Assembly (NCBI RefSeq): GCF_021390395.1
Contig: NZ_JAJUWT010000017.1
Coordinates: 1-64,000 of the forward strand
DNA from: Saccharothrix sp. S26
GTDB lineage: Bacteria > Actinomycetota > Actinomycetes > Mycobacteriales > Pseudonocardiaceae
Direction: 5' to 3'
DNA length: 64,000 bases
In this document: one piece after another, positions 24,568 through 38,416 of the stretch
Numbering within the stretch: the stretch's first letter is position 1
Layout of the letters: each line of letters starts with the position of its first letter
Notes under the pieces: model-generated
Seen by the model: only the letters and a program-made list of their open reading frames with translations
What the model was told of the DNA's origin: nothing
Database searches by the model: none
Program-made: the position numbers and the translations under genes

Positions 24568-24801
24568 TCAGCGGCCCTTGCCCGGGTAGGGCAGCAGTGC
24601 CATCTCGCGCGCGTTCTTGATCGCGGTGGCGACCTGGCGCTGCTGCTGCGGCGTCAGGCCGGTGACCCGGCGGGAGCGGATCTTGCCGCGGTCGGAGATG
24701 AACTTGCGCAGCAGGGTCGCGTCCTTCCAGTCCACTGTGGTCACGCCTTCCTTGCGCAGGGCGTTGACGCGGCGCTTGGCGGGGCGTTCGGGGCGGGGCA
24801 C
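24568..24801 (-). CDS. rpsR: 30S ribosomal protein S18, zinc-free paralog
   Basis: A 77-aa S18 ([59 protein letters not shown]). It has no cysteines, so it is the C-minus form induced when zinc is scarce. Last gene of the leftward rpmB-rpmG-rpsN-rpsR unit; GTG start with AGGAGG. Confidence 0.95.
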
Positions 24802-24812
24802 GGTGCTTCCTC

Positions 24813-25109
24813 CTACCAGCTCGACTTGGTGACGCCGGGGAGCTCGCCCCGGTGGGCCATCTCGCGCAGCCTGATCCGGCTCAGGCCGAACGCGCGGAAC
24901 ACCGCACGCGGTCGCCCGTCGACGGTGTCGCGGTTGCGCAGGCGGGTGGGGCTGGCGTCGCGCGGCAGCTTCTGCAACGCCCGCACGGCCTCGTCGCGGC
25001 GGTCGGGATCGGTGCGGATGACCTCCTTCAGCTCCGCGCGCCGCTCGGCGTGCCGGGCGACGGTCTCCCGCCGCTGCCGGTCGCGGGCGATCTTGGACTT
25101 CTTGGCCAT
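24813..25109 (-). CDS. rpsN: 30S ribosomal protein S14, zinc-free paralog
   Basis: A 98-aa S14 of the long type without the zinc-binding CxxC pairs ([55 protein letters not shown]). Its ATG overlaps the rpmG stop by one base (TGATG). Replaces the zinc form under Zur control. Confidence 0.95.
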
Positions 25110-25276
25110 CAGCGCTCCTCCTTGAAGTCGACGTGGCGGCGCACGACGGGGTCGAACTTGCGCAGCACCAGGCGGTCGGGGTCGTTGCGGCGGTTCTTGC
25201 GGGTGACGTAGGTGTAGCCGGTGCCCGCGGTGGAGCGGAGCTTGATGATCGGCCGGACGTCGGTCGACTTGGCCAT
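25109..25276 (-). CDS. rpmG: 50S ribosomal protein L33, zinc-free paralog
   Basis: A 55-aa L33 ([48 protein letters not shown]) lacking the four cysteines of the zinc form. The ATG at 25276 overlaps the rpmB stop by one base. Confidence 0.95.
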
Positions 25277-25515
25277 CAGAGCTTCACCCCTTGCCGGCGC
25301 AGCTCGGCGACCACGGCCTCGATGCCGCGCTTGTCGACGGTCTTGATGCCCTTGGTCGACAGCGTCAGCACGACGTGCCGGTTCTCGGACGGCAGCCAGA
25401 ACCGCCGCCGCTGGGTGTTGGGCAGCCAACGGCGGGACGTGCGCCGGTGGGAGTGGGAGACCTGTTTGCCGTAGCCGGGCTTGCGCCCGGTGACCCGGCA
25501 GTGCCGTGACGACAC
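25276..25515 (-). CDS. rpmB: 50S ribosomal protein L28, zinc-free paralog
   Basis: A 79-aa L28 ([40 protein letters not shown]). The CxxC pair of the zinc-binding form is missing (only one Cys remains near residue 5). The GTG at 25515 has GGAG at 25521-25524 on this strand. First gene of the four-gene leftward unit, with the Zur-type palindrome 15 bases upstream. Confidence 0.94.
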
Positions 25516-25527
25516 GCTACCTCCAGT

Positions 25528-25555
25528 TTGAAACGACAATCGTTTCCGTTAGGCT
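25528..25555 (+). promoter_or_regulatory. Promoter for the MRF-like gene, leaderless
   Basis: TTGAAA at 25528-25533 and TAGGCT at 25550-25555 are spaced by 16 bases, and the ATG at 25563 lies only seven bases past the -10, so the transcript is probably leaderless. The Zur-type palindrome overlaps this promoter. Confidence 0.7.
25530..25546. promoter_or_regulatory. Zur box candidate between divergent zinc-free ribosomal genes
   Basis: GAAACGACAATCGTTTC has perfect seven-base arms around CAA, similar to actinobacterial Zur operators (TGAAAA-N-TTTTCA type). It covers the rightward -35 and spacer and lies just ahead of rpmB on the left, so one Zur dimer pair could repress both units when zinc is ample. 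Confidence 0.75.
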
Positions 25556-25562
25556 AACCCAC

Positions 25563-26648
25563 ATGGGAACCGAGGTGCTGCTGGTGGCCGGGCTCGCGCG
25601 CCACGACGTGGCCGAAGAGGTCTGGCGGGCGTGGCCGCGGTCGGTGCTGGTCCGCCACGACCTGCGCGATCTGGCCGACGGTGTGGTGCGGCGCTGGGTC
25701 GACGGCGAGCTGACCGTGCTGGAACTGGCGCACGGCTGCGTGTCGTGCACGCTGCGCCTGGACCTGCTGCCGTTGCTGGAACGCCTGGGCGGCCGGGTGG
25801 TCGTGCACCTGGACCCGGCGCTGGAGCCGGAAGCGGTCTGCTTCGCCCTGCGGCAGGTGGACGTGCGGGTCGAGGCGGTGGTCACCGCGGTCGACCGCGC
25901 CACCTGGCTCGCCGACGCGACCGGGGACGAGGCGTTGCGCGACCGCGGCCTGGGAGCCGCCGAAGGCGACGAGCGGACCGTGGCGCAGGTGGTCGTGGGC
26001 CAGGCGGAGTTCGCCGACGCCATCGTGCTGACCGGGGAGGGCGCGGACCCGACCCTGGACGCCGTGCTGGACCGGCTCAACCCGCTCGCGCCGCGACGCC
26101 ACCGGGATGCCCTCGACGTGCCGGAGCTGCTGGCCGCGATCCCCGAGGGCGCGCGCCGGGGTCGTTTCGACGACGGCTTCGGCGCCCTGCTGCACGGGCA
26201 GCCGCCGCTGGAACCGGCGCACGGCGCGGCCGTCGTCCACTTCACCGAACGCCGCCCGTTCCACCCCATGCGGCTGCACCGGGCGATCGACGTCCTGCTC
26301 GACGGCGTCGTGCGCACCCGCGGCCGGGTGTGGGTGGCGAGCCAACCCGACGTCGCGCTGTGGCTGGAGTCCGCGGGCGGCGGGCTGAACGTCGGCAACC
26401 TCGGCCCGTGGCCGGCCGCCGTCGAGGACCGGTCAGCCGTGCCCGCCGAGCGCCGGGCCCTCGCGTGGCACCCCGACTACGGCGACCGGTCGCAGGAGCT
26501 GGTGGTCATCACCGCCTCAGCGGACCCGGCGGAGATCACGGCGGCACTGCGCGCGGCGCTGGTGACCGACGAGGAACTGGCGCTGGCCGACGAGCTGGAG
26601 TTCGTCGACCCTTTCGCCGAGTGGCACGACGAGATGGAGGAGTTGTGA
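25563..26648 (+). CDS. mrf: CobW-like ribosome-hibernation recruitment factor (MRF-like)
   Basis: A 361-aa CobW/COG0523-family protein. Family marks are [20 protein letters not shown] (the GCxxC metal site) and a C-terminal CobW_C domain ([40 protein letters not shown]). In mycobacteria the MRF protein encoded with zinc-free ribosomal proteins recruits the hibernation factor to ribosomes in zinc starvation; position and architecture match. The expected Walker A loop is not visible: the N-terminus reads [18 protein letters not shown], so GTP hydrolysis is doubtful. The ATG at 25563 is next to its promoter; the stop overlaps rpmE (GTGA). Confidence 0.85.
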
Positions 26649-26896
26649 AGCAGGGCATCCACCCCGACTACCACCCGGTGGTGTTCCGGGACCAGTCGAC
26701 CGGCAAGGCGTTCCTGACCCGGTCCACGGCGACGTCGACGCGCACCGTCGAGTGGGAGGACGGCAACACCTACCCGCTCATCACGGTCGACATCACCTCC
26801 GACTCGCACCCGTTCTGGACCGGCAACCAGCGGGTCGTGGACACCGCCGGCCGGGTCGAGAAGTTCAACCGCCGCTACGGCAGGAGGAACCGCTGA
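26645..26896 (+). CDS. rpmE2: 50S ribosomal protein L31 type B, zinc-free
   Basis: An 83-aa type B L31 ([51 protein letters not shown]) without zinc cysteines. The GTG at 26645 overlaps the MRF-like stop. Type B L31 replaces the zinc-binding type A form in zinc starvation. Confidence 0.95.
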
Positions 26897-26897
26897 C

Positions 26898-27059
26898 ATG
26901 GCCGTCCCCAAGCGCAAGACCTCCCGCAGCAACACCCGCCACCGCCGCGCCCGGTGGAAGGCCGCCGCACCGGACCTGGTGCCGGTGACCACCCTCGACG
27001 ACCGCCGGCTGACCGTGCCCAGGCGGCTCGTGGCCGCCTACCGCCGCGGGCTGCTGTGA
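26898..27059 (+). CDS. rpmF: 50S ribosomal protein L32, zinc-free
   Basis: A 53-aa L32 ([20 protein letters not shown], then [20 protein letters not shown]) with none of the usual zinc cysteines. The ATG at 26898 follows the CAGGAGGA site at 26881-26888. It completes a rightward MRF-like/L31/L32 unit and ends 12 bases before the convergent kinase gene. Confidence 0.92.
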
Positions 27060-28820: not shown

Positions 28821-29212
28821 CGCGTAACGCTAGCAACCGGCCACCGGGGACCGGCGATCACGCCACCGCGTGCGCGGCGGTTTCGCGGTCCCGAACCCCG
28901 TCCGGTGCGTGCCGGGCTGCGGGGAACCGCAACCCCGCGCGCGGTCGAACGCGTCGATCACGCCGTGCCGGCGTTCGCGAACGCCCGCTACCACCAGGGC
29001 CGGGCGGCCCGCAGCAGCCGTCCGAGAGGATCCTTCGGGGTCGCTGATAAATCGGTACGAGATTCGATTCCCCTATCCCCGGAATATCTCGGAGTCGGAA
29101 TATGTCCCTGTTCGGGCATGGGTCTTTTGCTATAGTCGCTCCTCGGTGACTTCGGCCGGTGTCGCACGCCCGTTCGGAGGTAGAACCGGCCTGGGGGAGG
29201 CAGCGCACGATC
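28821..29212. other. Regulatory region upstream of the amino-group carrier locus
   Basis: No gene is supported in these 392 bases. The right half (29041-29140) is markedly AT-richer than the surroundings. It has an inverted repeat GAGAT-TCG-ATTCC at 29059-29071 with GGAATATCTC at 29081-29090, a direct repeat of CGGAATAT (29080-29087 and 29096-29103), and an extended -10 element TGCTATAGT at 29128-29136. A weak or activator-dependent -35 is implied. This probably drives the permease and perhaps the whole operon. Confidence 0.5.
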
Positions 29213-30475
29213 ATGACTGGTCATCGCATCGGTTTGGCGCAGGGCACCGCGATTTACGTGGGGGCGATTCTGGGGGCGGGCATTCTCGCGCTGCCCGCGC
29301 TCGCCGCCGCGGAGGCGGGGCCCGCGGCGATCATCGCGTGGACGAGCCTGGTGCTGTTCTGCATCCCGGTCGCGCTCAGCTTCGCCGCGATGGGCTCGCA
29401 GTACCCCGACGGCGGCGGCATCGCCACGTTCGCGGCCAAGGCGTGGGGACCGCGCGCGTCGGGCGCGGTCGGCTACTGGTTCTACTTCGCGCTGCCCGCC
29501 GGCGCGCCCGCCACCGCGTTCGTCGGCGGCCAGTACGTCGCGCACGCGCTGGGCGGTGGTACCGGCCAGGCGCTGGCGATCGCCGCGATCCTGCTGGTGG
29601 CGGCGTTCGGCATAAACGCGGTCGGCCTCAAGGTCTCCGGACGGGTGCAGCTCGGGCTGATCAGCCTGCTCGCGGTGTTGCTGCTGGTGGCCGTGATCAC
29701 CGCGATGCCGCACGCGGACACCGCCAACCTCACCCCGTTCGCGCCCAACGGCTGGCTGTCCGTCGGCCACGCGGCCAGCCTGCTGTTCTTCACCTTCGCG
29801 GGCTGGGAGGCCGTCACCCACCTGTCCGGCGAGTTCCGCGACCCGCGCCGCGACCTGCGCCGCACCGCGATCCTCACGCTGATCGTGGTCGCCGTGCTCT
29901 ACCTGGGCCTGGCCCTGGCCGCGATCCTGGTCCTCGGCCCGGAGCTGGCCACCTCCAGCGCGCCGCTGACGCTGCTGCTGGAACGCGGCGTCGGGCCGGC
30001 CGCCGGGCCGGTCACCGCGGGCCTGGCCATCGTGCTGACCTTCGGCACCATGACCGCCTACCTGGCGGGTGCGTCCCGGCTCGGCGCGGCGCTGGCCCGC
30101 GACGGCGCGCTGCCCGCGTGGCTGAGCCGCGGCCACGAGGCGGGTTCCGTGCCGCGCCGCAGCCTGGCCCTGCTGTTCGTGCTGAGCCTGCTGCTCTCGG
30201 CGGTCGCCCTGGGCTTCGGCCTCGAACTCGGTGACGTGATGCTGGCCGCGTCCACGTGCTTCATCGCCGTGACGGTGGCCGGGCTCGCCGCGGGGCTGCG
30301 GCTGCTGCCCCGGCGCTCGGCCGTGTGGTGGGGCACCGTGCTGGCGCTGGTCGTGATGAGCGTCGTGCTCGTCTTCTCGGGTTACTTCCTGCTCGTGCCC
30401 GCGGTCCTCGCGGGAATCGCGCTCACCTACTCGCGGCGGACCCAGCCGGTCGCCGCGCAGCGGGTCGACGGCTAG
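29213..30475 (+). CDS. APC-superfamily amino acid permease
   Basis: A 420-aa transporter with about 12 membrane helices and APC features: GTAIYVGAILGAGILALPAL in helix 1, YPDGGGIATFAAKAWGPRAS, ASLLFFTFAGWEAVTHLSGE (helix 6) and GEFRDPRRDLRRTAI. Proteins like this import or exchange amino acids. It is 102 bases upstream of the carrier-protein gene on the same strand, so it may carry the amino acid made or used by that operon. The ATG at 29213 has GGGGGAGG 12 bases upstream. Confidence 0.88.
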   Translation: MTGHRIGLAQGTAIYVGAILGAGILALPALAAAEAGPAAIIAWTSLVLFCIPVALSFAAMGSQYPDGGGIATFAAKAWGPRASGAVGYWFYFALPAGAPATAFVGGQYVAHALGGGTGQALAIAAILLVAAFGINAVGLKVSGRVQLGLISLLAVLLLVAVITAMPHADTANLTPFAPNGWLSVGHAASLLFFTFAGWEAVTHLSGEFRDPRRDLRRTAILTLIVVAVLYLGLALAAILVLGPELATSSAPLTLLLERGVGPAAGPVTAGLAIVLTFGTMTAYLAGASRLGAALARDGALPAWLSRGHEAGSVPRRSLALLFVLSLLLSAVALGFGLELGDVMLAASTCFIAVTVAGLAAGLRLLPRRSAVWWGTVLALVVMSVVLVFSGYFLLVPAVLAGIALTYSRRTQPVAAQRVDG

Positions 30476-30577
30476 TCGACGACAAACGTGCCGAGCCCGA
30501 TCGCACCACGACCGCGATCGGGTGGGTTCGGTCTGCCGAAAAGGTCGGTCAACGAAATGTCGAACGGAGCGGAGAAA

Positions 30578-30757
30578 ATGATCGCAACCGTGAGCTGCCT
30601 CGTCTGCGACGCCGAGCTGGAGGTGGCCGCCGCCACCGAAAAGGGCGAGATCGTCGAATGCGCGTCCTGCGGCCAGGAGCACGAAGTGGTCGACGCGACC
30701 GACGGCCGCGTCGCGGTCGAGCTCGCGCCGGAGGTCGAAGAGGACTGGGGCGAGTGA
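30578..30757 (+). CDS. lysW: Amino-group carrier protein, LysW-like
   Basis: A 59-aa acidic zinc-finger protein: Cys7-x2-Cys10 (SCLVC), Cys28-x2-Cys31 (ECASC) and the diagnostic C-terminus EEDWGE. In LysW-type carriers the terminal Glu side chain is joined by LysX to the amino group of glutamate or aminoadipate, protecting it and providing a handle for downstream enzymes. The ATG at 30578 has GGAG at 30566-30569; a longer in-frame start at 30557 (MSNGAEK) is less likely. The stop overlaps the GTG of lysX by four bases. Lysine itself is not made this way in actinobacteria, so this is a secondary-metabolism version. Confidence 0.95.
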   Translation: MIATVSCLVCDAELEVAAATEKGEIVECASCGQEHEVVDATDGRVAVELAPEVEEDWGE

Positions 30758-31626
30758 CCGGGCGACCGGACGTCCTGCTGTCGGTGACGATGGTGCGGCC
30801 CGACGAACGGCTGCTGCTCGACTCGCTGCGCGCCCAGGGCATCAGCGTCGAGACCGCCCTCGTCGCCGACATCGGCAACGTGCTCAACGGCTCGGCACCG
30901 CGACCGGCGGTCGCGTTGCTGCGCAACCTCTCGCACCGCGAGGCCGCGGGCATCGCGCACCGGCTCGGCCACCTGGGCGTGCCGACCCTCAACACCGGCG
31001 CGGCGATCGACATCTGCCACGACAAGGGCACGCAGGCGCTGCTGTTCGACCGGCACGGCATCCCGCACCCGAGGTCGCTGCACGCGTTCGGCCACGACCA
31101 GGTGCGCGACATCGCCCTGGCGCTGGGCTGGCCGGTCGTGGTCAAACCGCTCAGCGGCTCCTGGGGCCGCGGTGTGGTGCGGCTGACCGACATGGGGTGC
31201 CTTGAGGCGTGGACGGGCGGGCGGGAGTCCGCCGACGCGGCGGGCAAGCAGTTCCCCGTCCTGGTGCAGGAGTACGTGGAGAAGCCGGGCCACGACCTGC
31301 GCGTGGTCGTCGTCGGCAGCGAGCCGGTGGTGGCCATCGAGCGCCGTTCGGCGGACTGGCGCACCAACACCCACCTCGGCGCGACCGTGCGGCGCACCGA
31401 GGTCACCCCGGCGATCAAGGACCTGTGCGACCGCGTGGTCGCGCTGCTCGGACCCGGTTTCTACGGCGTCGACCTGCTGGAAGACGTCCGCACGGGTGAG
31501 CTCAAGGTGTTGGAGGTCAACGCCAACCCCGAGTTCGCCAAGTCGTCCGCGCAGCACGGCGTGGACATCGGCGCGCACCTCGCCGCCTTCCTGGCGGACC
31601 GCGTCCGCCACCTCGCCGCGGCCTGA
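30754..31626 (+). CDS. lysX: LysX-like ATP-grasp ligase charging the carrier protein
   Basis: A 290-aa RimK-type ATP-grasp enzyme. It has VGTP-like substrate loops, LNTGAAIDICHDKGTQALLF, WPVVVKPLSGSWGRGVVRL (glycine-rich ATP clamp), PVLVQEYVEKPGHDLRVVVV, and the metal-binding end GELKVLEVNANPEFAKSSAQ. It would form an isopeptide-type bond between the carrier C-terminal Glu and the amino group of an acidic amino acid, most likely glutamate. GTG start overlapping lysW (GTGA). A 47-base gap follows before the half-DegT gene. Confidence 0.93.
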   Translation: MTGRPDVLLSVTMVRPDERLLLDSLRAQGISVETALVADIGNVLNGSAPRPAVALLRNLSHREAAGIAHRLGHLGVPTLNTGAAIDICHDKGTQALLFDRHGIPHPRSLHAFGHDQVRDIALALGWPVVVKPLSGSWGRGVVRLTDMGCLEAWTGGRESADAAGKQFPVLVQEYVEKPGHDLRVVVVGSEPVVAIERRSADWRTNTHLGATVRRTEVTPAIKDLCDRVVALLGPGFYGVDLLEDVRTGELKVLEVNANPEFAKSSAQHGVDIGAHLAAFLADRVRHLAAA

Positions 31627-31673
31627 CCGCCGTCCGGCTCTGTCGTGCCCGACTTTCCTGGGGGAAGCCAACG

Positions 31674-32282
31674 ATGGACCACTTCGACACCGCGATCGCG
31701 CTCAGCCGGGTGCTGACCTCCGGCGTGATCATGAGCATCGAGCGCAACGACCGCGAGCTGCCCGCGCTGGAACGCCTGCTGCGCAAGGTGAGCGGGCGGA
31801 CACAGGTCGTGCTGGTCAACAGCGCCACCGCGGGTCTGCACTCCGCGCTGGCGGGGCTGCGGCTCGGCCACGGCGACGAGGTCGTGGCACCCGCCCTGCC
31901 CGACGCGCACCGCCGGTTCCTGGACTGGCTGGGCGTCCGGGTGCGCGAGGACGGCACGCCCGCGTTCGCGTACGTGTCCCCGACCCCGGCCGACGTGGAC
32001 CGGCTCGGCCCACTGCTGACCACCACCGCCGGTGCGCCCGCGGTGGTGCTGGACCTGACCGGGCTGGGCTTCGGCCCGGCCGCGGCGGTGCTGTTCGACG
32101 ACGAGGACGCGTGGCGGCGCGCGGAGCGGCTGAAGATCTTCGGCACGTTCGACCTGCGCACGATGTGGACCCAGGCCGAGACCGACGAAGGGGTCGGCGG
32201 CGTGCAGTTCAACTACCGGCTCAGCCCCCTGGTCGCCGCGTGCGTCCGGATGGCCCTCACCACACAAGGAGCTCGGGCGTGA
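31674..32282 (+). CDS. Half-length DegT/DnrJ-like aminotransferase homolog
   Basis: A 202-aa protein resembling pieces of the DegT/DnrJ/EryC1 fold but about half normal length. It has an N-terminal VLVNSATAGLHSALAGLRLG segment like the TASGTSSLHLALVGAG of its neighbour, and a C-terminal VGGVQFNYRLSPLVAACVRM matching the NYRLSxLQAA helix. The middle with the catalytic Lys and PLP-binding Asp/His is largely missing; no SxxxK-type Schiff-base motif remains. It overlaps the full-length DegT by four bases (GTGA at 32279). The likely role is a non-catalytic partner subunit that completes the dimer interface; a decayed duplicate is the alternative, but the frame is clean. Confidence 0.7.
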   Translation: MDHFDTAIALSRVLTSGVIMSIERNDRELPALERLLRKVSGRTQVVLVNSATAGLHSALAGLRLGHGDEVVAPALPDAHRRFLDWLGVRVREDGTPAFAYVSPTPADVDRLGPLLTTTAGAPAVVLDLTGLGFGPAAAVLFDDEDAWRRAERLKIFGTFDLRTMWTQAETDEGVGGVQFNYRLSPLVAACVRMALTTQGARA

Positions 32283-33598
32283 ACACCGACTTCCCGAAGG
32301 CGCCGCTGCCGCTGCCGCGCGCCGAGGACGTGACGGAGGAACTGGCCGCGCTGGAGGGCCCGCCGGTGATCCCCGCCGGGCTGCGCCGCACGCTGTTCCC
32401 GGTCATCACCAAAGAAGACGTGTTCAAGATGCTGCTGTCCACGCGGGTCGACCCGGCGAAGGTCGTCGCCGACTTCGCCGAGGCCTACCGCGAGTACGTG
32501 GGCGCCGCGCACGCCCTGCCGACCGCGAGCGGCACGTCCAGCCTGCACCTGGCACTGGTCGGCGCGGGCGTGCGACCGGGTGACGAGGTGGTGGTGCCCG
32601 CGTTCACGTTCATCGCCACCGCCCAGGCGGTCGTCGCGGCGGGCGCGATCCCGGTGTTCGCCGACATCGAGCCGGACACCTACTGCCTGGACCCGGCCGC
32701 AGCCGAACGCGCCGTCACCGAGCGCACCAGGGCGATCATGCCGGTGCACGTGCACGGCCTGCCCGCGGACCTGACCGCGTTGCGCGCGGTCGCCGACCGG
32801 CACGGCCTGGCGCTGGTCGAGGACGCCTCGCACGCCCACTCGGCCACGTTCGACGGCCGCGTGGCGGGCTCGCTCGGCGACGCGGCCGGGCAGAGCCTCA
32901 TGGCGGACAAGAACTTCCCGGTCGGCGGCGAGGGCGGCATCGCGTTCTTCGCCACGGCCGACGCGCACGCCCGCGCGGTGGAGTACCTGGAGCGGCACGG
33001 CATCGACTACGGCATGTCGTGGATCGTGGCGGCGTTCGGCGCGAGCCAGCTCGAACGGCTGCCGTACTACGACGAGATCCGCGCGCGCAACGCGGCGCGG
33101 CTGGCCGAGGTGCTCGGCGAGACCGGGCTGTTCAGCGCGCCGCACGTGCCCGAGGGCCGCACGCACGCGTACAACATGTACCGGATCGGGCTGCACCCGG
33201 ACGCCGTCGGCCTGGGCGACCTGCCCGTGCACGCGGTCAAGGAGGTGGTGCACGAGCTGCTGGTCGCGGAGGGCGTGCCCGCGCGCGAGTGGCAGAACAC
33301 GCCGATCCCGTGCCACATCCCGTTCCGCCGGCGCGAGGGCTTCGGCGGCGGCTACCCGTTCAGCCTGAACCCGGCGGCGGCGCGGGATTACGCGCCCGAG
33401 GACTTCCCGGTCACGCTGTCGATGCTGAGCAGCACGCTGGTGCTGTGCCGTGAGCTGCGCTCGCCGGTCGAGTACGAGCGGCTGGAGCGGTACGGGCACG
33501 CGTTCGCCAAGGTGGCGCGCCGGCCCGACGCGATCCGCAAGCTGGTCGGCGGCCGGGAGTTCCCGCTGCCGCACGCGAAGGCGGCCCGCCTTGGCTGA
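32279..33598 (+). CDS. DegT/DnrJ-family PLP aminotransferase
   Basis: A 439-aa PLP enzyme with full DegT signatures: ALPTASGTSSLHLALVGAGV, GDEVVVPAFTFIATAQAVVA, IMPVHVHGLPADL, LVEDASHAHSATFDG (PLP-pyridine Asp) and the Schiff-base lysine in SLMADKNFPVGGEGGI. It would transfer an amino group onto a keto or aldehyde carbon. LysW systems normally use the class III enzyme LysJ for this step; a DegT enzyme here suggests amination of the ketose-like product left after the transketolase reaction. GTG start at 32279; its end overlaps lysY by eight bases. Confidence 0.92.
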   Translation: MNTDFPKAPLPLPRAEDVTEELAALEGPPVIPAGLRRTLFPVITKEDVFKMLLSTRVDPAKVVADFAEAYREYVGAAHALPTASGTSSLHLALVGAGVRPGDEVVVPAFTFIATAQAVVAAGAIPVFADIEPDTYCLDPAAAERAVTERTRAIMPVHVHGLPADLTALRAVADRHGLALVEDASHAHSATFDGRVAGSLGDAAGQSLMADKNFPVGGEGGIAFFATADAHARAVEYLERHGIDYGMSWIVAAFGASQLERLPYYDEIRARNAARLAEVLGETGLFSAPHVPEGRTHAYNMYRIGLHPDAVGLGDLPVHAVKEVVHELLVAEGVPAREWQNTPIPCHIPFRRREGFGGGYPFSLNPAAARDYAPEDFPVTLSMLSSTLVLCRELRSPVEYERLERYGHAFAKVARRPDAIRKLVGGREFPLPHAKAARLG

Positions 33599-34631
33599 GA
33601 CGAACGGGTCGACCGTGACGCCCGGTCGGGTCCGGGTCGCGGTGGTCGGCGCCAGCGGGTACACCGGTGCCGAGCTGGTCCGGCTGCTGCTCGACCACCC
33701 GCACGCGGAGCCGGCGTTCCTGTCCTCGGAGCGCAGTGCCGGCAAACCGGTGGACCGGGTGCTGCCCGCCGTGCGCAACCACCCGGCCGTGGCCGGCCTC
33801 ACGCTACGGCCGTTGGACGAGCTGCCCGAGGTGGACGTGGCGTTCGGCTGCCTGCCCGGCGGGGAGCTGCCGGGCCGGATGCCGTTGCTGGCCGAACGGG
33901 CCAAGCACGTGGTCAACCTGGCGGGTGACTTCCGGCTCACCGACCCGGACGCGGCGGCCAGGCACTACCCGGCGTCGGCGGCGTGGACCGAGCCGTTCGC
34001 CTACCACGTGCCGGAGTTCCCGACCGCGGGCGGGCGGTTCCTGAACCTGCCCGGGTGCATGGCCGTCACGTCGATCTACGCGCTGTACCCGCTGCTGGCC
34101 GGTGGGCTGATCGAGCCCGACCCGGTGGTGGACGCCAAGACCGGGTCCAGCGGCAGCGGCCGGACGTCGTCGGAGCACCCGGCCGACCGGTTCGGCAACT
34201 TCCGGGCGCACAAGCCGCACGGCCACCGGCACGGGCCGGAGGTCGCCCAGGCGCTGCGCGACCTCACCGGCGTGGACGTCGACCTCCAGTTCTCCACGCA
34301 CAGCCTCGACGTGGCCCGCGGCATCCTCGTGACGGCCTACTCGCGGCTGCGGCCGGGCGTCACCGAGGTCGACGTCAAGCGGGCTTACGTCAAGGCGTAC
34401 CGGAACACGCCGTTCGTCAGGGTGACCAAGCACGGCCTGCCCGCGTTGAAGACGGTGGTCGGGTCGAACGTCGCCGAGGTCGCGCCGCAGGTGCACGGCG
34501 ACCGGTGCGTCACCGTCGCCGCCCTCGACAACCTGATCAAGGGCGCGGCCGGGCAGGCGGTGCAGGCGATGAACCAGCTCTTCGGCCTGCCCGAGCACAC
34601 CGGCCTGCCGTTCACGGCGGTGGCGCCGTGA
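33591..34631 (+). CDS. lysY: LysY/ArgC-like carrier-bound acyl-phosphate reductase
   Basis: A 346-aa NADPH-dependent semialdehyde dehydrogenase: Rossmann VAVVGASGYTGAELVRLLLD, FGCLPGG, catalytic Cys in FLNLPGCMAVTSIYALYPLL, THSLDVARGILVTAYSRL, and the ArgC-type active-site loop HKPHGHRHGPEV. It would reduce the carrier-bound gamma-phosphate to the semialdehyde. Start chosen as the TTG at 33591, overlapping the aminotransferase; GTG 33615 is possible. The stop overlaps the kinase fusion (GTGA). Confidence 0.92.
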   Translation: MAETNGSTVTPGRVRVAVVGASGYTGAELVRLLLDHPHAEPAFLSSERSAGKPVDRVLPAVRNHPAVAGLTLRPLDELPEVDVAFGCLPGGELPGRMPLLAERAKHVVNLAGDFRLTDPDAAARHYPASAAWTEPFAYHVPEFPTAGGRFLNLPGCMAVTSIYALYPLLAGGLIEPDPVVDAKTGSSGSGRTSSEHPADRFGNFRAHKPHGHRHGPEVAQALRDLTGVDVDLQFSTHSLDVARGILVTAYSRLRPGVTEVDVKRAYVKAYRNTPFVRVTKHGLPALKTVVGSNVAEVAPQVHGDRCVTVAALDNLIKGAAGQAVQAMNQLFGLPEHTGLPFTAVAP

Positions 34632-36463
34632 CGCTGCACGTGGTGAAGCTGGGCAGCGCGACCCTCGCGCACCCCTCGGTGTTCGCGGAGGTCGCCGAAC
34701 TGGCCGGCCGGGCACGGGTGCTGGTCGTCGCGGGCGGCGCGGCGGGCATCGCGGCGCACTACCGGGCCATCGGGCGCGAGGTGCCGCTGTTGACGCTGCG
34801 CAACGGCGACGAGGTGCGGCACTGCACGCCCGAGGAGATGGCGCACCTCGTGGACGCCTACGAGCGGGTCACGTTGCCCGGCGTGCGGTCCGGGCTGGCC
34901 GCGCACGGGCTCGCCGTGTTCGCCGCCACCGGGGCGTCCGGCCTGGTCACCGCCACCCCGGCGGGCCCGCTGCGGGCGTCGGTCGAGGGCAAGGCGCGGA
35001 TCGTGCGCGACCACCGCATCGGCACGGTGTCGTCGGTGGACACCGCGCGGCTGGACGCCCTGCTCGACGCCTACGACGTCGTGGTGCTGTCACCGCCGGT
35101 CGCCGCGTCCGACGGCGGCACGCCGCTCAACGTGGACGCCGACGTGCTGGCCGCGGAGCTGTCCAACGCGCTGCACGCCGACCACCTGCGCCTGGTCACC
35201 GGCACGCCCGGGTTGCTCACCGACCCGGCCGACCCGACCACCACGATCGCCGACCTGCACCCCGGCGAGGGCGCGGCGCACGCGGGCGGCCGGATGCGGC
35301 AGAAGGTGCGGGCCGCCGAGCTGGCCCTGCGGGGCAGCGCGGAGGTGGCCATCACCGGACCGCACACGCTGCACAACCCGGCGGGCACCAGCCGGTTCTG
35401 GCCGGAGCCGCCGCCGCGCCCGGAGCTGACCCTGCTGAGCCGGGCGGTGGCCATCCCTTCGGTGTCCCACGACGAGGGGGAACTGGCCCGTTACCTGGTC
35501 GGGTGGTGCGCGGCGCGCGGGATCGACGCGTTCGTGGACGAGGTCGGCAACTTCGTGGCGACCAAGGGCGACGGGCCGCGCCGGCTGCTGCTGCTCGGCC
35601 ACCTCGACACGGTGCCGTTCCACTGGCCCGTGCGCTGGGACGGTGACGCGCTGTTCGGGCGGGGGAGCGTCGACGCCAAGGGGTGCCTGGTGAACTTCGT
35701 CGAGGTGCTGGCCTCCGTCGACGTGCCGCCGGGCCACCAGCTGCGGGTGGTCGGCGCGGTGGAGGAGGAGGTGTCGTCCTCGCGCGGGGCGTTCCACGTC
35801 CGCGACCACTACCCGGCCGACGCCGTGGTCGTCGGCGAGCCCAGCGGTGTGGACGCCTTGACGTTGGGCTACTTCGGGCTGTTCAAGCTGGCGCTGGCGG
35901 TGCGCACGCCCACCGGCCACTCGGCGGGCAAGGACGCGGTGTCCGCGCCGGACGCCGTGGTCGACCTGGTGCAGCGCATCCGCGACGACGTGCTCAAGCT
36001 CGCGCCGGACGCGTTGAGCGCGCTGATCTCGATGACCGGCGAGCAGCGGCACGACCACCACTCGGCCGAGGCGGTGCTGAACTTCCGCGTGCCGCCCGGC
36101 GCGGACCTGGACGCGATCACCGACGCGGCGCTGGCCCACGGCTCGCCGACCTCCTCCGTGCGGGTGCTGCGGCGCACGCCGGGCTACGCGGGGAAGCGGT
36201 CCACGGTGCTGGCCAAGGCGTTCGGCCGGGCGTTCGGGCAGCACGGGCTGCGGCCCCGCTACCTGGTGAAGAAGGGCACGTCGGACATGAACACGCTGGC
36301 CACGACGTGGCACGACGTGCCGATGGTGGCCTACGGGCCGGGCGACTCGGCGTTCGACCACACCGACGAGGAGCGGATCACGGGCGCGGACTGCCTGGCC
36401 GCCCGCGCCGTGCTGGCCGACGCCGTTAAGCACTGGATCGCGCTGACGGGGGAGGCGGGATGA
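34628..36463 (+). CDS. lysZ/lysK: LysZ kinase - LysK peptidase fusion protein
   Basis: One 611-aa frame. Residues 1-255 are an amino-acid-kinase-fold LysZ (HVVKLGSATL, VLVVAGGAAGIAAHYRAIGR, EMAHLVDAYERVTLPGV, GGTPLNVDADVLAAELSNAL, GGRMRQKVRAAELAL), which phosphorylates the side-chain carboxylate of carrier-bound glutamate. After a PEPPPRPE linker (259-266), residues 267-611 are an M20 metallopeptidase of LysK type: GHLDT at 324-328, RGSVDAKG with Asp349, AVEEEVSS (catalytic Glu/metal), GEPSG (Glu404), and the dimerisation lid. LysK releases the finished amino acid from the carrier. In lysine and arginine systems these are separate proteins. Starts and stops overlap both neighbours (GTGA, ATGA). 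Confidence 0.93.
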   Translation: MTLHVVKLGSATLAHPSVFAEVAELAGRARVLVVAGGAAGIAAHYRAIGREVPLLTLRNGDEVRHCTPEEMAHLVDAYERVTLPGVRSGLAAHGLAVFAATGASGLVTATPAGPLRASVEGKARIVRDHRIGTVSSVDTARLDALLDAYDVVVLSPPVAASDGGTPLNVDADVLAAELSNALHADHLRLVTGTPGLLTDPADPTTTIADLHPGEGAAHAGGRMRQKVRAAELALRGSAEVAITGPHTLHNPAGTSRFWPEPPPRPELTLLSRAVAIPSVSHDEGELARYLVGWCAARGIDAFVDEVGNFVATKGDGPRRLLLLGHLDTVPFHWPVRWDGDALFGRGSVDAKGCLVNFVEVLASVDVPPGHQLRVVGAVEEEVSSSRGAFHVRDHYPADAVVVGEPSGVDALTLGYFGLFKLALAVRTPTGHSAGKDAVSAPDAVVDLVQRIRDDVLKLAPDALSALISMTGEQRHDHHSAEAVLNFRVPPGADLDAITDAALAHGSPTSSVRVLRRTPGYAGKRSTVLAKAFGRAFGQHGLRPRYLVKKGTSDMNTLATTWHDVPMVAYGPGDSAFDHTDEERITGADCLAARAVLADAVKHWIALTGEAG

Positions 36464-37257
36464 CCGGGACGTTGGAGGGCGCGTCGCTGGAGGTGCTGCG
36501 GGACCGCGCCACGCGCGCACGCCGGCTGGTGGTGGACATGGCGGCCCAGCCGACCGGCTGCCACCTGGGCGGCAGCCTGTCCGTGCTGGACATCCTCGTC
36601 GCCGCGTTCGACCGGGCGGACGCGGACGACGGCACGGAGGTCGTGCTGAGCAAGGGCCACGCGGCGGCGGCGCTGTACGCGGCGCTGTACGTGTCCGGTC
36701 GGCTGGCGGAGAACCCGGCGCCCCTGTACGGGCTGGCGGGCCACCACTACACCGGTCACCCGAGCCCGGCCGTGCCCGGCGTGCGGTTCCCGACCGGCAG
36801 CCTCGGGCACGGCGTGCCGTACGCGGCGGGATGGGCGATGGCGCAGCGGCTGTCCGGCGGGTCCGGGCTCGGCATCGCGGTCACCGGCGACGGCGAGTTG
36901 CAGGAAGGGCTGGTCTGGGAGGCGTGCCAGGTGGCCGCCGCGCGCCGGTTGGGCAACCTCGTGGTCGTCGTGGACCGCAACGGCGGGCAGAACGACGGGC
37001 TGGTGGCCGACATCTCGCCGCTGCCGGACCTGGACGCCCGGTTCGCCGCGTTCGGCTTCGAGGTGTCCGAAGTGGACGGCCACGACCTCGGCGCGCTGCG
37101 CTCGGCGTTGGGCGGCGCGGTCGGTGACCGGCCGCGCGCGGTCATCGCGCACACGGTGAAGGGCAAGGGCGTGCCGCCGGTGGAGGGCAAACCGGGGGCG
37201 CACTACGTGACCATCGACGCGACGAGGGCGGCGAAGTGGAAGCGCATGATCAGGTGA
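36460..37257 (+). CDS. Transketolase, N-terminal (ThDP-binding) subunit
   Basis: A 265-aa protein equal to the N-terminal half of transketolase: LSKGHAAAALYAALYVSGRL, GHHYTGHPSPAVPGVRFPTG, SLGHGVPYAAGWAMAQRLSG, and the ThDP motif VTGDGELQEGLVWEACQVAA ending in VVVVDRNGGQNDG. With the next gene it forms a split transketolase that moves a two-carbon ketol unit. In this operon the acceptor is presumably the carrier-bound glutamate semialdehyde. ATG at 36460 overlaps the fusion gene. Confidence 0.93.
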   Translation: MTGTLEGASLEVLRDRATRARRLVVDMAAQPTGCHLGGSLSVLDILVAAFDRADADDGTEVVLSKGHAAAALYAALYVSGRLAENPAPLYGLAGHHYTGHPSPAVPGVRFPTGSLGHGVPYAAGWAMAQRLSGGSGLGIAVTGDGELQEGLVWEACQVAAARRLGNLVVVVDRNGGQNDGLVADISPLPDLDARFAAFGFEVSEVDGHDLGALRSALGGAVGDRPRAVIAHTVKGKGVPPVEGKPGAHYVTIDATRAAKWKRMIR

Positions 37258-38150
37258 CCGCGCTGTCGGGGCGCGACGCGTACCGCAGCGAGCTGACCGA
37301 GCTGGCCCGGCACGACCCCAGGGTGCTGTGCTTCGAGGCCGACCTGGGCGGCCGCAAGCACCCGTTCGCGCAGGAGCACCCGGACCGCTTCTTCAACCTG
37401 GGCATCGCCGAGGCCACCATGATCGACATGGCGGCGGGGCTGGCGTCGGCGGGCTACCGGCCGTTCGTCAGCACGTTCGCGCCGTTCGCGACGTTGCGCG
37501 CGGCGGAGAGCATGAAGCTGAGCATGGGGTACCTGGGCGCGGGCGTGGTCGTGGTCGCGCCCTACGCCGGGGTGTCGGGCGCGTGGTTCGGCACCACGCA
37601 CCACTGCCTGGAGGACCTGGCGGTGGTGCAGAGCTTCCCGGGCATCACGATCGCCGCGCCCTACGGCGAGCAGGAGACGCGGGCGGTGGTCCGCGCGGCC
37701 GCCGCCGGCTCCGGGCCGTTCTACGTCCGGACCGGGCGCAACGCGGCGGCGGTCAGCCTGCCCGGGTCCGACGAGCCCGCCGGCGTGAACTGGGCGGCAC
37801 CCGGGTCGTCCGAGGTGTGCCTGGTGTCGGTGGGCGAGGTCGGGACGGCGTTGGCGCTGGAGGCGCACGCCCAGCGGCCGGAGCTGGGGCACGCGCACCT
37901 GTGCTTCGTCGACCACGCGTCGTTGACGGCGGCGGCCGAGGAACTGAGGTCGTCGCGGTACTCGCGGTTCGTCGTGGTGGAGGAGCACCGGCCCACCGGG
38001 GGAGTGGCGAGCACGTTGGCGCTGCTGATGCCCGCGGTCGAGGTGGTCGGGGTGAACGCGGGCATGGCGTGGCCCTCCGAGGGCGGTGACCACGGCGAGG
38101 TGCTGGGGCAGCTGGGGCTGGACCTGGCGCACGTCCTGGCCGCCGTCTGA
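37254..38150 (+). CDS. Transketolase, C-terminal (Pyr/C) subunit
   Basis: A 298-aa partner subunit with the pyrimidine-binding domain (FFNLGIAEATMIDMAAGLAS, the Glu of IAEA activates ThDP), FVSTFAPFATLRAAESMKLS, GVSGAWFGTTHHCLEDLAVV, and a transketolase C domain (VVVEEHRPTGGVASTLALL). The GTG at 37254 (GTGA overlap) matches the operon pattern; GTG 37236 is also in frame. It is the last gene of the unit, followed by a strong hairpin terminator. Confidence 0.93.
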   Translation: MTALSGRDAYRSELTELARHDPRVLCFEADLGGRKHPFAQEHPDRFFNLGIAEATMIDMAAGLASAGYRPFVSTFAPFATLRAAESMKLSMGYLGAGVVVVAPYAGVSGAWFGTTHHCLEDLAVVQSFPGITIAAPYGEQETRAVVRAAAAGSGPFYVRTGRNAAAVSLPGSDEPAGVNWAAPGSSEVCLVSVGEVGTALALEAHAQRPELGHAHLCFVDHASLTAAAEELRSSRYSRFVVVEEHRPTGGVASTLALLMPAVEVVGVNAGMAWPSEGGDHGEVLGQLGLDLAHVLAAV

Positions 38151-38216
38151 GCGCATTCCGCCCTCGCCCGACAATTCCCGCACACAACCGAAAAAGCCCG
38201 ACGCGCTTCCGCTGCC

Positions 38217-38260
38217 GAGGCGGCCCGCTGTTCACGAATGTGGACGCAGCGGGCCGCCTC
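38217..38260. terminator. Strong terminator after carrier-protein operon
   Basis: GAGGCGGCCCGCTG at 38217-38230 pairs perfectly with 38247-38260 (14-bp stem, 16-base loop), followed by a CTTTT run. Flanking CCGAAAAAGC and GCTTTTCGG segments can extend the stem. It marks the end of the operon. Confidence 0.88.
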
Positions 38261-38416
38261 GTCGCTTTTCGGTTCATGGTCGTGAATCATGTTGCCTGTT
38301 CCGCGGTGCTGCGCAATGCTCCCTGAGGGTTTTCCCCGAGTACGCGCAAACGTCCATCCGCCTGCCGCCGGCGAATGCGACGACACCATCCGACCTTCGC
38401 AGACGCAGGAGATGGA

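Follow-up and report, generated by a model that had tools for sequence, protein, structure and literature searches.

The genome of the soil actinomycete Saccharothrix sp. S26 hosts, in a stretch of 64,000 nucleotides (assembly GCF_021390395.1, contig NZ_JAJUWT010000017.1, positions 1 to 64,000; denoted here as the window), a cassette built on a LysW-type amino-group carrier protein and a two-part aminotransferase. The cassette is accompanied by a permease, includes no short-chain dehydrogenase/reductase (SDR), no nonribosomal peptide synthetase (NRPS) and no ligase beyond LysX, and is a variant of known carrier-protein pathways. It likely makes and transports a free amino acid of the 2,6-diamino-5,7-dihydroxyheptanoate type, and would be a biosynthetic cassette changing place between related genomes.

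Organization of the operon

Nine plus-strand genes, located at 29213-38150, form one tight operon; the window itself is the start of contig 17 of the 9.08 Mb genome. The family of each gene is backed by Pfam and NCBIfam matches (Table 1), and the nine open reading frames (ORFs) are all intact. Five of the eight gene junctions are 4-bp overlaps, and the other gaps measure 102, 47 and 16 bp when the LysY start is taken as 33615. An earlier note on this DNA, made by reading the letters, had listed LysW, LysX, LysY, LysZ, LysK, a split transketolase, two DegT-type genes and a permease. Family scans find all of these functions, LysZ and LysK being halves of a single ORF and not separate genes. Kinase, reductase and hydrolase for a carrier-bound acid are assigned by family only.

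The LysW match is the single one in the whole genome. LysX scores 211 bits against LysX_arch (TIGR02144), under the cut-off of 275.6, and 190 bits against rimK_fam, over the cut-off of 143.4; it carries GSWGRG, and its closest solved chains are 3vpd and 1uc8. The best PDB matches of TkA and TkB are the split-chain transketolase 6yak and the split-chain 6yaj, respectively. The strong terminator reported at the end of the operon corresponds to an inverted repeat, which is present and could plausibly act as such, judging from its sequence. The repeat is absent from the terminator-scan list, the scan admitting loops of 3-8 nt only.

Table 1. Features of the Saccharothrix sp. S26 cassette (positions in the window)
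Feature	Position	Strand	Evidence
APC-family amino acid permease, probable product transporter	29213..30475	+	AA_permease_2 PF13520, 155 bits
LysW-type amino-group carrier protein, 59 aa, C-terminal EEDWGE	30578..30757	+	Zn_ribbon_LysW PF21344, 49 bits (cut-off 27)
LysX-type ATP-grasp ligase, predicted to charge LysW; GSWGR motif, signature NPEFAKSS	30754..31626	+	TIGR02144 and rimK_fam
DegT-short, 202 aa, aminotransferase partner subunit; lacks the catalytic-Lys region, retains the loop and QFNYRLS	31674..32282	+	DegT, 39 bits
DegT-long, catalytic subunit, SLMADKNFPVGGEGG; 16 residues shorter before GIDY	32279..33598	+	PF01041, 232 bits
LysY/ArgC-type semialdehyde dehydrogenase, start 33591 TTG or 33615 GTG	33591..34631	+	ArgC TIGR01850, 284 bits (cut-off 233.6)
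LysZ-LysK fusion, 611 aa, one ORF: carrier-bound amino acid kinase (residues 5-243) and M20 hydrolase (residues 321-601), predicted product release	34628..36463	+	AA_kinase and Peptidase_M20
Transketolase N-terminal subunit TkA (GDGELQEGLVWE)	36460..37257	+	Transketolase_N PF00456
Transketolase C-terminal subunit TkB, likely start GTG 37254	37236..38150	+	Transket_pyr PF02779
Inverted repeat, 15 bp perfect, 16-nt loop, possible terminator	38216..38261	+	Sequence inspection
Cassette unit, 89% identical to Saccharothrix deserti, flanks dissimilar	29144..38151	+	DNA comparison

Distribution of class A loci

LysW was sought in 397 genomes of the order. Matches were found in 25, of which 21, window included, are over the curated cut-off; the four below it were left out. 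Up to 20 kb were taken around the other 20 LysW loci, and genes were called by a codon-usage script of our own. Three of these loci are of the same kind as the window, called here class A, and 17 are grouped as class B and others. A one-genome-per-species collection was scanned with two peptide patterns derived from the DegT-long alignment, which distant members may escape. The scan yielded 69 loci, 67 of which (L049-L115) are class A; L116 and L117 are distant DegT genes (relatives at 24-27%), left out of the counts.

The gene order had been recommended by the earlier note as a target to be searched in related genomes. DegT-short, DegT-long, LysY, LysZK, TkA and TkB are indeed adjacent and in this order in 65 of the 67 named loci, which are distributed in three phyla. 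The exceptions are L113, in which TkB was unrecognised, and L114 of Enterobacter sp. EA-1, in which the class A genes are split in several reading-frame pieces by either decay or sequencing errors. LysX is found directly before this six-gene core in 62 loci, and the stretches L059, L061 and L069 begin near DegT-short. Aside from these last three, all 67 loci (64) feature LysW by tblastn, with the ending EE[D/T/S]WGE in 63; codon-usage gene calls place LysW in order in 43 of the 67 only. LysZ and LysK are fused in 72 of the 73 class A loci scored. Since the same gene order and related sequences are seen across three phyla, the operon is not a chance assembly.

Hosts include Streptomyces, Kitasatospora, Nocardiopsis, Actinopolyspora, Paenibacillus, Kroppenstedtia and a Clostridium metagenome-assembled genome, as well as Chromobacterium, Chitinimonas, Kosakonia and Prodigiosinella. 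Plasmid-borne cassettes were found in Streptomyces camelliae, Pseudalkalibacillus hwajinpoensis and Staphylococcus epidermidis. The S. epidermidis plasmid, 54 kb long and from human blood, carries a full class A core and an ATP-grasp ligase gene (L028:10845-19565, NZ_CP043848.1). Paenibacillus loci among L087-L090, L094, L096, L097 and L107 share a run of genes (~180, 444, 340, 330, 316, 300 and 550 aa) just upstream of the cassette or of LysX. Of 396 Actinomycetota genomes drawn evenly, only that of the window gave a strong match to DegT-short; in five others the matches were weak and partial.

In a DegT tree, from which L026, L043, L046, L114 and L115 were left out, the 69 class A rows cluster together (100/100), separate from the five class B rows. 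The S. epidermidis DegT groups with those of two enterics (100/100), on a long branch flagged by the program. The closest named relative at the locus is S. deserti, 96% in DegT-long.

An aminotransferase encoded by two genes

The two DegT genes most likely encode two halves of one aminotransferase, as suggested by sequence comparisons. The pair carries reciprocal deletions. DegT-long has the catalytic lysine and 16 residues fewer before the asparagine motif; DegT-short lacks the lysine region, and has the loop and the N-x-R motif. One active site has apparently been divided in this way between two genes. The GEGG and GWN motifs are separated by 36 residues in all seven class B DegT proteins compared (of 10), versus 20 residues in 10 of the 11 class A long subunits compared, the remaining one being unmatched by the regular expression used. 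The short subunits are marked by the motif QFN[YF]R (72 of 73 calls), the long subunits by SLMADKNFP (71 of 75 calls). Of the two DegT-type genes noticed earlier, the second is full-length, and the first is a truncated paralogue. That the latter is a pseudogene fragment is ruled out by motifs invariant in 24 rows and by a solved homologue.

This homologue belongs to the crystallised heterooligomeric aminotransferase of Serratia sp. ATCC 39006 (PDB 8y96-8y98). DegT-long corresponds to chain A/B and DegT-short to chain C/D of 8y96, and both window subunits are homologous to their counterparts over nearly the full length. The stretches printed for chains A and C recur without a single difference in DegT-long and DegT-short of L105, respectively. 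The core genes of the L105 cassette are identical in kind to those of the window. L105 adds, however, a major facilitator superfamily (MFS) transporter, an ATP-grasp ligase and a flavodoxin-like gene, whereas the window has the APC permease only. No paper with codes 8Y96-8Y98 was found in the literature searched, and none retrieved under those terms describes the cassette; papers on vazabitide and aziridine fall outside that literature. Work by the depositing authors presumably exists behind the 8y96 entries, and the cassette is not claimed here to be undescribed.

Relationship to class B clusters

By its sequence features class A is a distinct class, sister group of the ficellomycin/vazabitide-type clusters. 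In ten of the 17 class B and other loci there is a DegT gene, 34-39% identical to DegT-long, and no DegT-short; LysZ and LysK are separate genes in 12 of the 17. L031 and L036, which have a LysZK fusion and no DegT in the stretch, possibly represent a third cluster type. L036 also carries sulfotransferase, SDR, AMP-binding and acyl-CoA dehydrogenase genes.

The class B DegT of L048 and Fic25 of Streptomyces ficellus align with a score of 803 bits, and the Fic25 structure (8gyj) holds a pyridoxal phosphate (PLP)-(5S,6S)-N2-acetyl-DADH adduct, DADH being 2,6-diamino-5,7-dihydroxyheptanoic acid; the sister pathway therefore makes DADH. According to excerpts of a review (PMC9570651), which also cites the carrier-mediated synthesis of vazabitide, DADH results in the azinomycin pathway from kinase, reductase, transketolase AziC5/C6 and then aminotransferase. 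Carrier, ligase, kinase, reductase, split transketolase, DegT and hydrolase are common to class A and to clusters of the ficellomycin, vazabitide and azinomycin type (class B; Fic25, PDB 8gyh-8gyj). The latter differ, having a single DegT, mostly separate LysZ and LysK, another gene order and another LysX signature, with NRPS motifs in 6 of 17. The likeness to vazabitide-type synthesis drawn by the earlier note thus stands, with the qualification that fused LysZK, complementary DegT subunits, LysX signature and gene order set the window in a class of its own. The product, previously left unnamed, is by analogy probably DADH-like.

Proposed pathway

Each reaction, as well as substrate, product and direction of transport, has been inferred. 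LysX would attach an acidic amino acid, most likely glutamate, via its amine to the C-terminal Glu of LysW. The side-chain carboxylate would be phosphorylated by the LysZ half of LysZK and reduced to the semialdehyde by LysY, and the split transketolase would add a two-carbon ketol unit. The new ketone would be aminated by the heterodimeric DegT, DegT-long contributing the PLP-binding lysine, DegT-short the partner loop and N-x-R. The LysK half would then hydrolyse the product off the carrier, and the adjoining APC permease would move it across the membrane. Starting from glutamate, the product would be a stereoisomer of DADH.

LysX signature

Of 64 class A LysX calls, 61 have Ser at the third place past the conserved EF, 56 of them with Lys or Arg at the second; the other three calls are unmatched at this signature. 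Phe or Leu is found at the third place in most of the class B rows printed. Signatures mostly fit PEF-x-K/R-S in class A and VEF-x-x-F/L in the class B rows shown, and Sulfolobus ArgX has PEFKGF. The residues following EF are K-N-S in Thermus LysX and K-G-F in Sulfolobus ArgX. Excerpts of PMC10433800 state that two signature residues steer the substrate, Asn-Thr selecting aminoadipate and Gly-Phe glutamate, and that Natrinema NgArgX, a third form (Ala-Leu), uses glutamate. The alignment columns have been equated with those residues by our own reading. The comparison of LysX with glutamate- and aminoadipate-type ligases, advised by the earlier note, assigns the window, on alignment, to a third type that is neither known form, with one residue (Ser) in common with the aminoadipate-type LysX of Thermus.

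Companion genes

Companion genes were surveyed in 74 class A loci of 10-32 kb each, the window excluded and two genomes being counted twice (L043/L075, L046/L073). NRPS genes were detected by motif regular expressions, which can miss genes, and ligases were typed by best BLAST label. NRPS or polyketide synthase motifs were found by these expressions in none of the 74 loci, versus 6 of the 17 class B and other loci. In the window operon, family scans found no NRPS-type family and no ATP-grasp ligase beyond LysX itself. The absence of an NRPS beside the operon had been remarked before; the class, too, shows no constant company of NRPS clusters.

ATP-grasp ligase genes are found in 64 of the 74 loci. 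Among the other ten, eight have permease and SDR, L062 lies at a contig end and L132 was untyped in the ligase script. Three ligases were scanned for domains. LAL_C2, which is the C-terminal domain of L-amino acid ligases, is present in those of L046 and L028; the ligase of L043, of the upstream type, matches ATP-grasp_4 and lacks LAL_C2. The gene labelled MFS046 encodes a 437-aa protein without Pfam match, the MFS transporter being g16_046. Bacilysin-type clusters are L-amino acid ligase dipeptide clusters. Class A resembles them in its frequent ATP-grasp gene, and in the LAL_C2 domain of two of the three ligases scanned; the window operon differs in lacking such a ligase. Since most class A loci feature an ATP-grasp ligase, the pathway probably leads as a rule to a dipeptide. 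In the window, because ligase, SDR and NRPS are all missing from the operon, it likely ends in a free amino acid. The free product, one of the two outcomes suggested by the earlier note, fits this minority sub-type.

Permeases adjoining the cassette are 71-74% identical in seven other loci, and 91% in S. deserti. An SDR remnant was sought in the window, and none was found. No close SDR was found elsewhere in the genome, the best-scoring match being 37% identical to the S. deserti SDR; among the matches listed none exceeds 44%, and that one is short. A second Saccharothrix copy, L132 (G414), has permease and core and no recognised SDR. Similarly, no close ligase was found in the genome, the best match being 33% to one ligase type and 27-41% to the other.

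Genomic sites

Similarity between the window and S. deserti stops at the TkB stop codon. Among the matches listed, sorted by score, cassette-long ones are found in 3 of 25 Saccharothrix genomes. The three copies are located at three sites, with flanks mutually unmatched in the stretches compared. The flanks of the S. deserti insertion are found six bases apart on contig 41 of the window's genome, which denotes an empty site, and the genes flanking the window cassette match at separate places across the 25 genomes of the genus, among the matches listed. Most simply, the cassette was gained at different sites; alternatively, losses accompanied by rearrangement may account for the pattern. The pectate lyase gene (PF00544, 38375-39520) already noticed 3' of the operon follows TkB; S. 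deserti has there the SDR (L049:15975-16745). Similar lyase DNA (~84-92%) is found in other genomes of the genus, and once more in the same genome (contig 12, 88%), among the matches listed.

At 24568-27059 of the window, paralogues of ribosomal proteins S18, S14, L33, L28, L31 and L32 are clustered around a CobW-C protein. Five of the six are cysteine-free, and L28 has one cysteine. Paralogues without cysteine are as expected of a zinc-starvation set.

Alternative readings

Some observations weigh against a free DADH-type product. The GSWGR motif, said in excerpts of PMC10433800 to recognise the carrier tail and present in the window, is unmatched in 31 of 64 class A LysX calls. Class A LysX has Ser where Thermus LysX has Ser, so that glutamate is not assured. 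ATP-grasp proteins at 27-41% exist in the genome, and a ligase located elsewhere could act. Finally, S. deserti and seven other permease-type loci have an SDR; the window lacks it, and for this reason its pathway may be incomplete.

Rather unlikely, in our estimate, is a role of the product as a building block that a ligase or NRPS, encoded at another place in the genome, would join in trans to a peptide, as the prevalence of ligases in class A and the ATP-grasp relatives just mentioned might suggest. Ligases within loci of actinobacterial type are 66-85% alike (Glycomyces type, own copy apart) or 60-65% alike (upstream type), but none so close is found in the genome. This argument is weaker for the Firmicutes/enteric ligase type, the members of which are only 42-46% alike. 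The operon itself has neither ligase nor NRPS, no search having been made for NRPS genes elsewhere in the genome.

A similarly low probability is given to the start from an amino acid other than glutamate, such as aminoadipate, which would lead to a longer, so far undescribed diamino-dihydroxy acid. The third-type signature, with Ser where most class B rows shown have Phe or Leu, is in favour. LysY, however, scores as ArgC, and Staphylococcus and enterics are not known to produce aminoadipate. Moreover, NgArgX has yet another signature and uses glutamate, as stated in the excerpts of PMC10433800.

Still less probable is that the window copy is a decaying or partial cassette, which has lost the SDR and makes an intermediate only. 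In S. deserti and seven other loci of permease type an SDR is part of the set, and no close substitute was found in the genome; yet all ORFs are intact, and the G414 copy is likewise made of permease and core. Primary lysine or arginine biosynthesis by the LysW route, discarded also by the earlier note, is hardly credible: the LysW with WGE tail, the LysX-type ligase and the kinase, reductase and hydrolase families are those of the LysW/ArgW pathways of Thermus and archaea, but transketolase and sugar-type aminotransferase are foreign to these, and occurrence is patchy, with long cassette matches, among those listed, limited to 3 of the 25 Saccharothrix genomes, and DegT-short in none of 395 other Actinomycetota genomes save the five weak, partial matches.

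Implications

Production and transport of a free DADH-type amino acid remains the preferred reading. A bolder proposal, which we regard as doubtful, is that class A LysX has a third specificity leading to an undescribed diamino-dihydroxy acid. The cassette would be a portable warhead module exchanged between actinomycetes, Paenibacillus, beta- and gammaproteobacteria and a staphylococcal plasmid, and its product would be supplied as a dipeptide in most hosts and, by way of a dedicated permease, as the free amino acid in Saccharothrix.

The DegT pair is a clear case of an aminotransferase active site apparently split by reciprocal deletion. Carrier-protein amino acid synthesis is separable from NRPS assembly lines: one conserved module, spread over three phyla and also plasmid-borne, is mostly accompanied by a stand-alone ligase gene and, in the window, by just a permease. 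The cassette may help in the discovery of new non-proteinogenic amino acids and small dipeptides.

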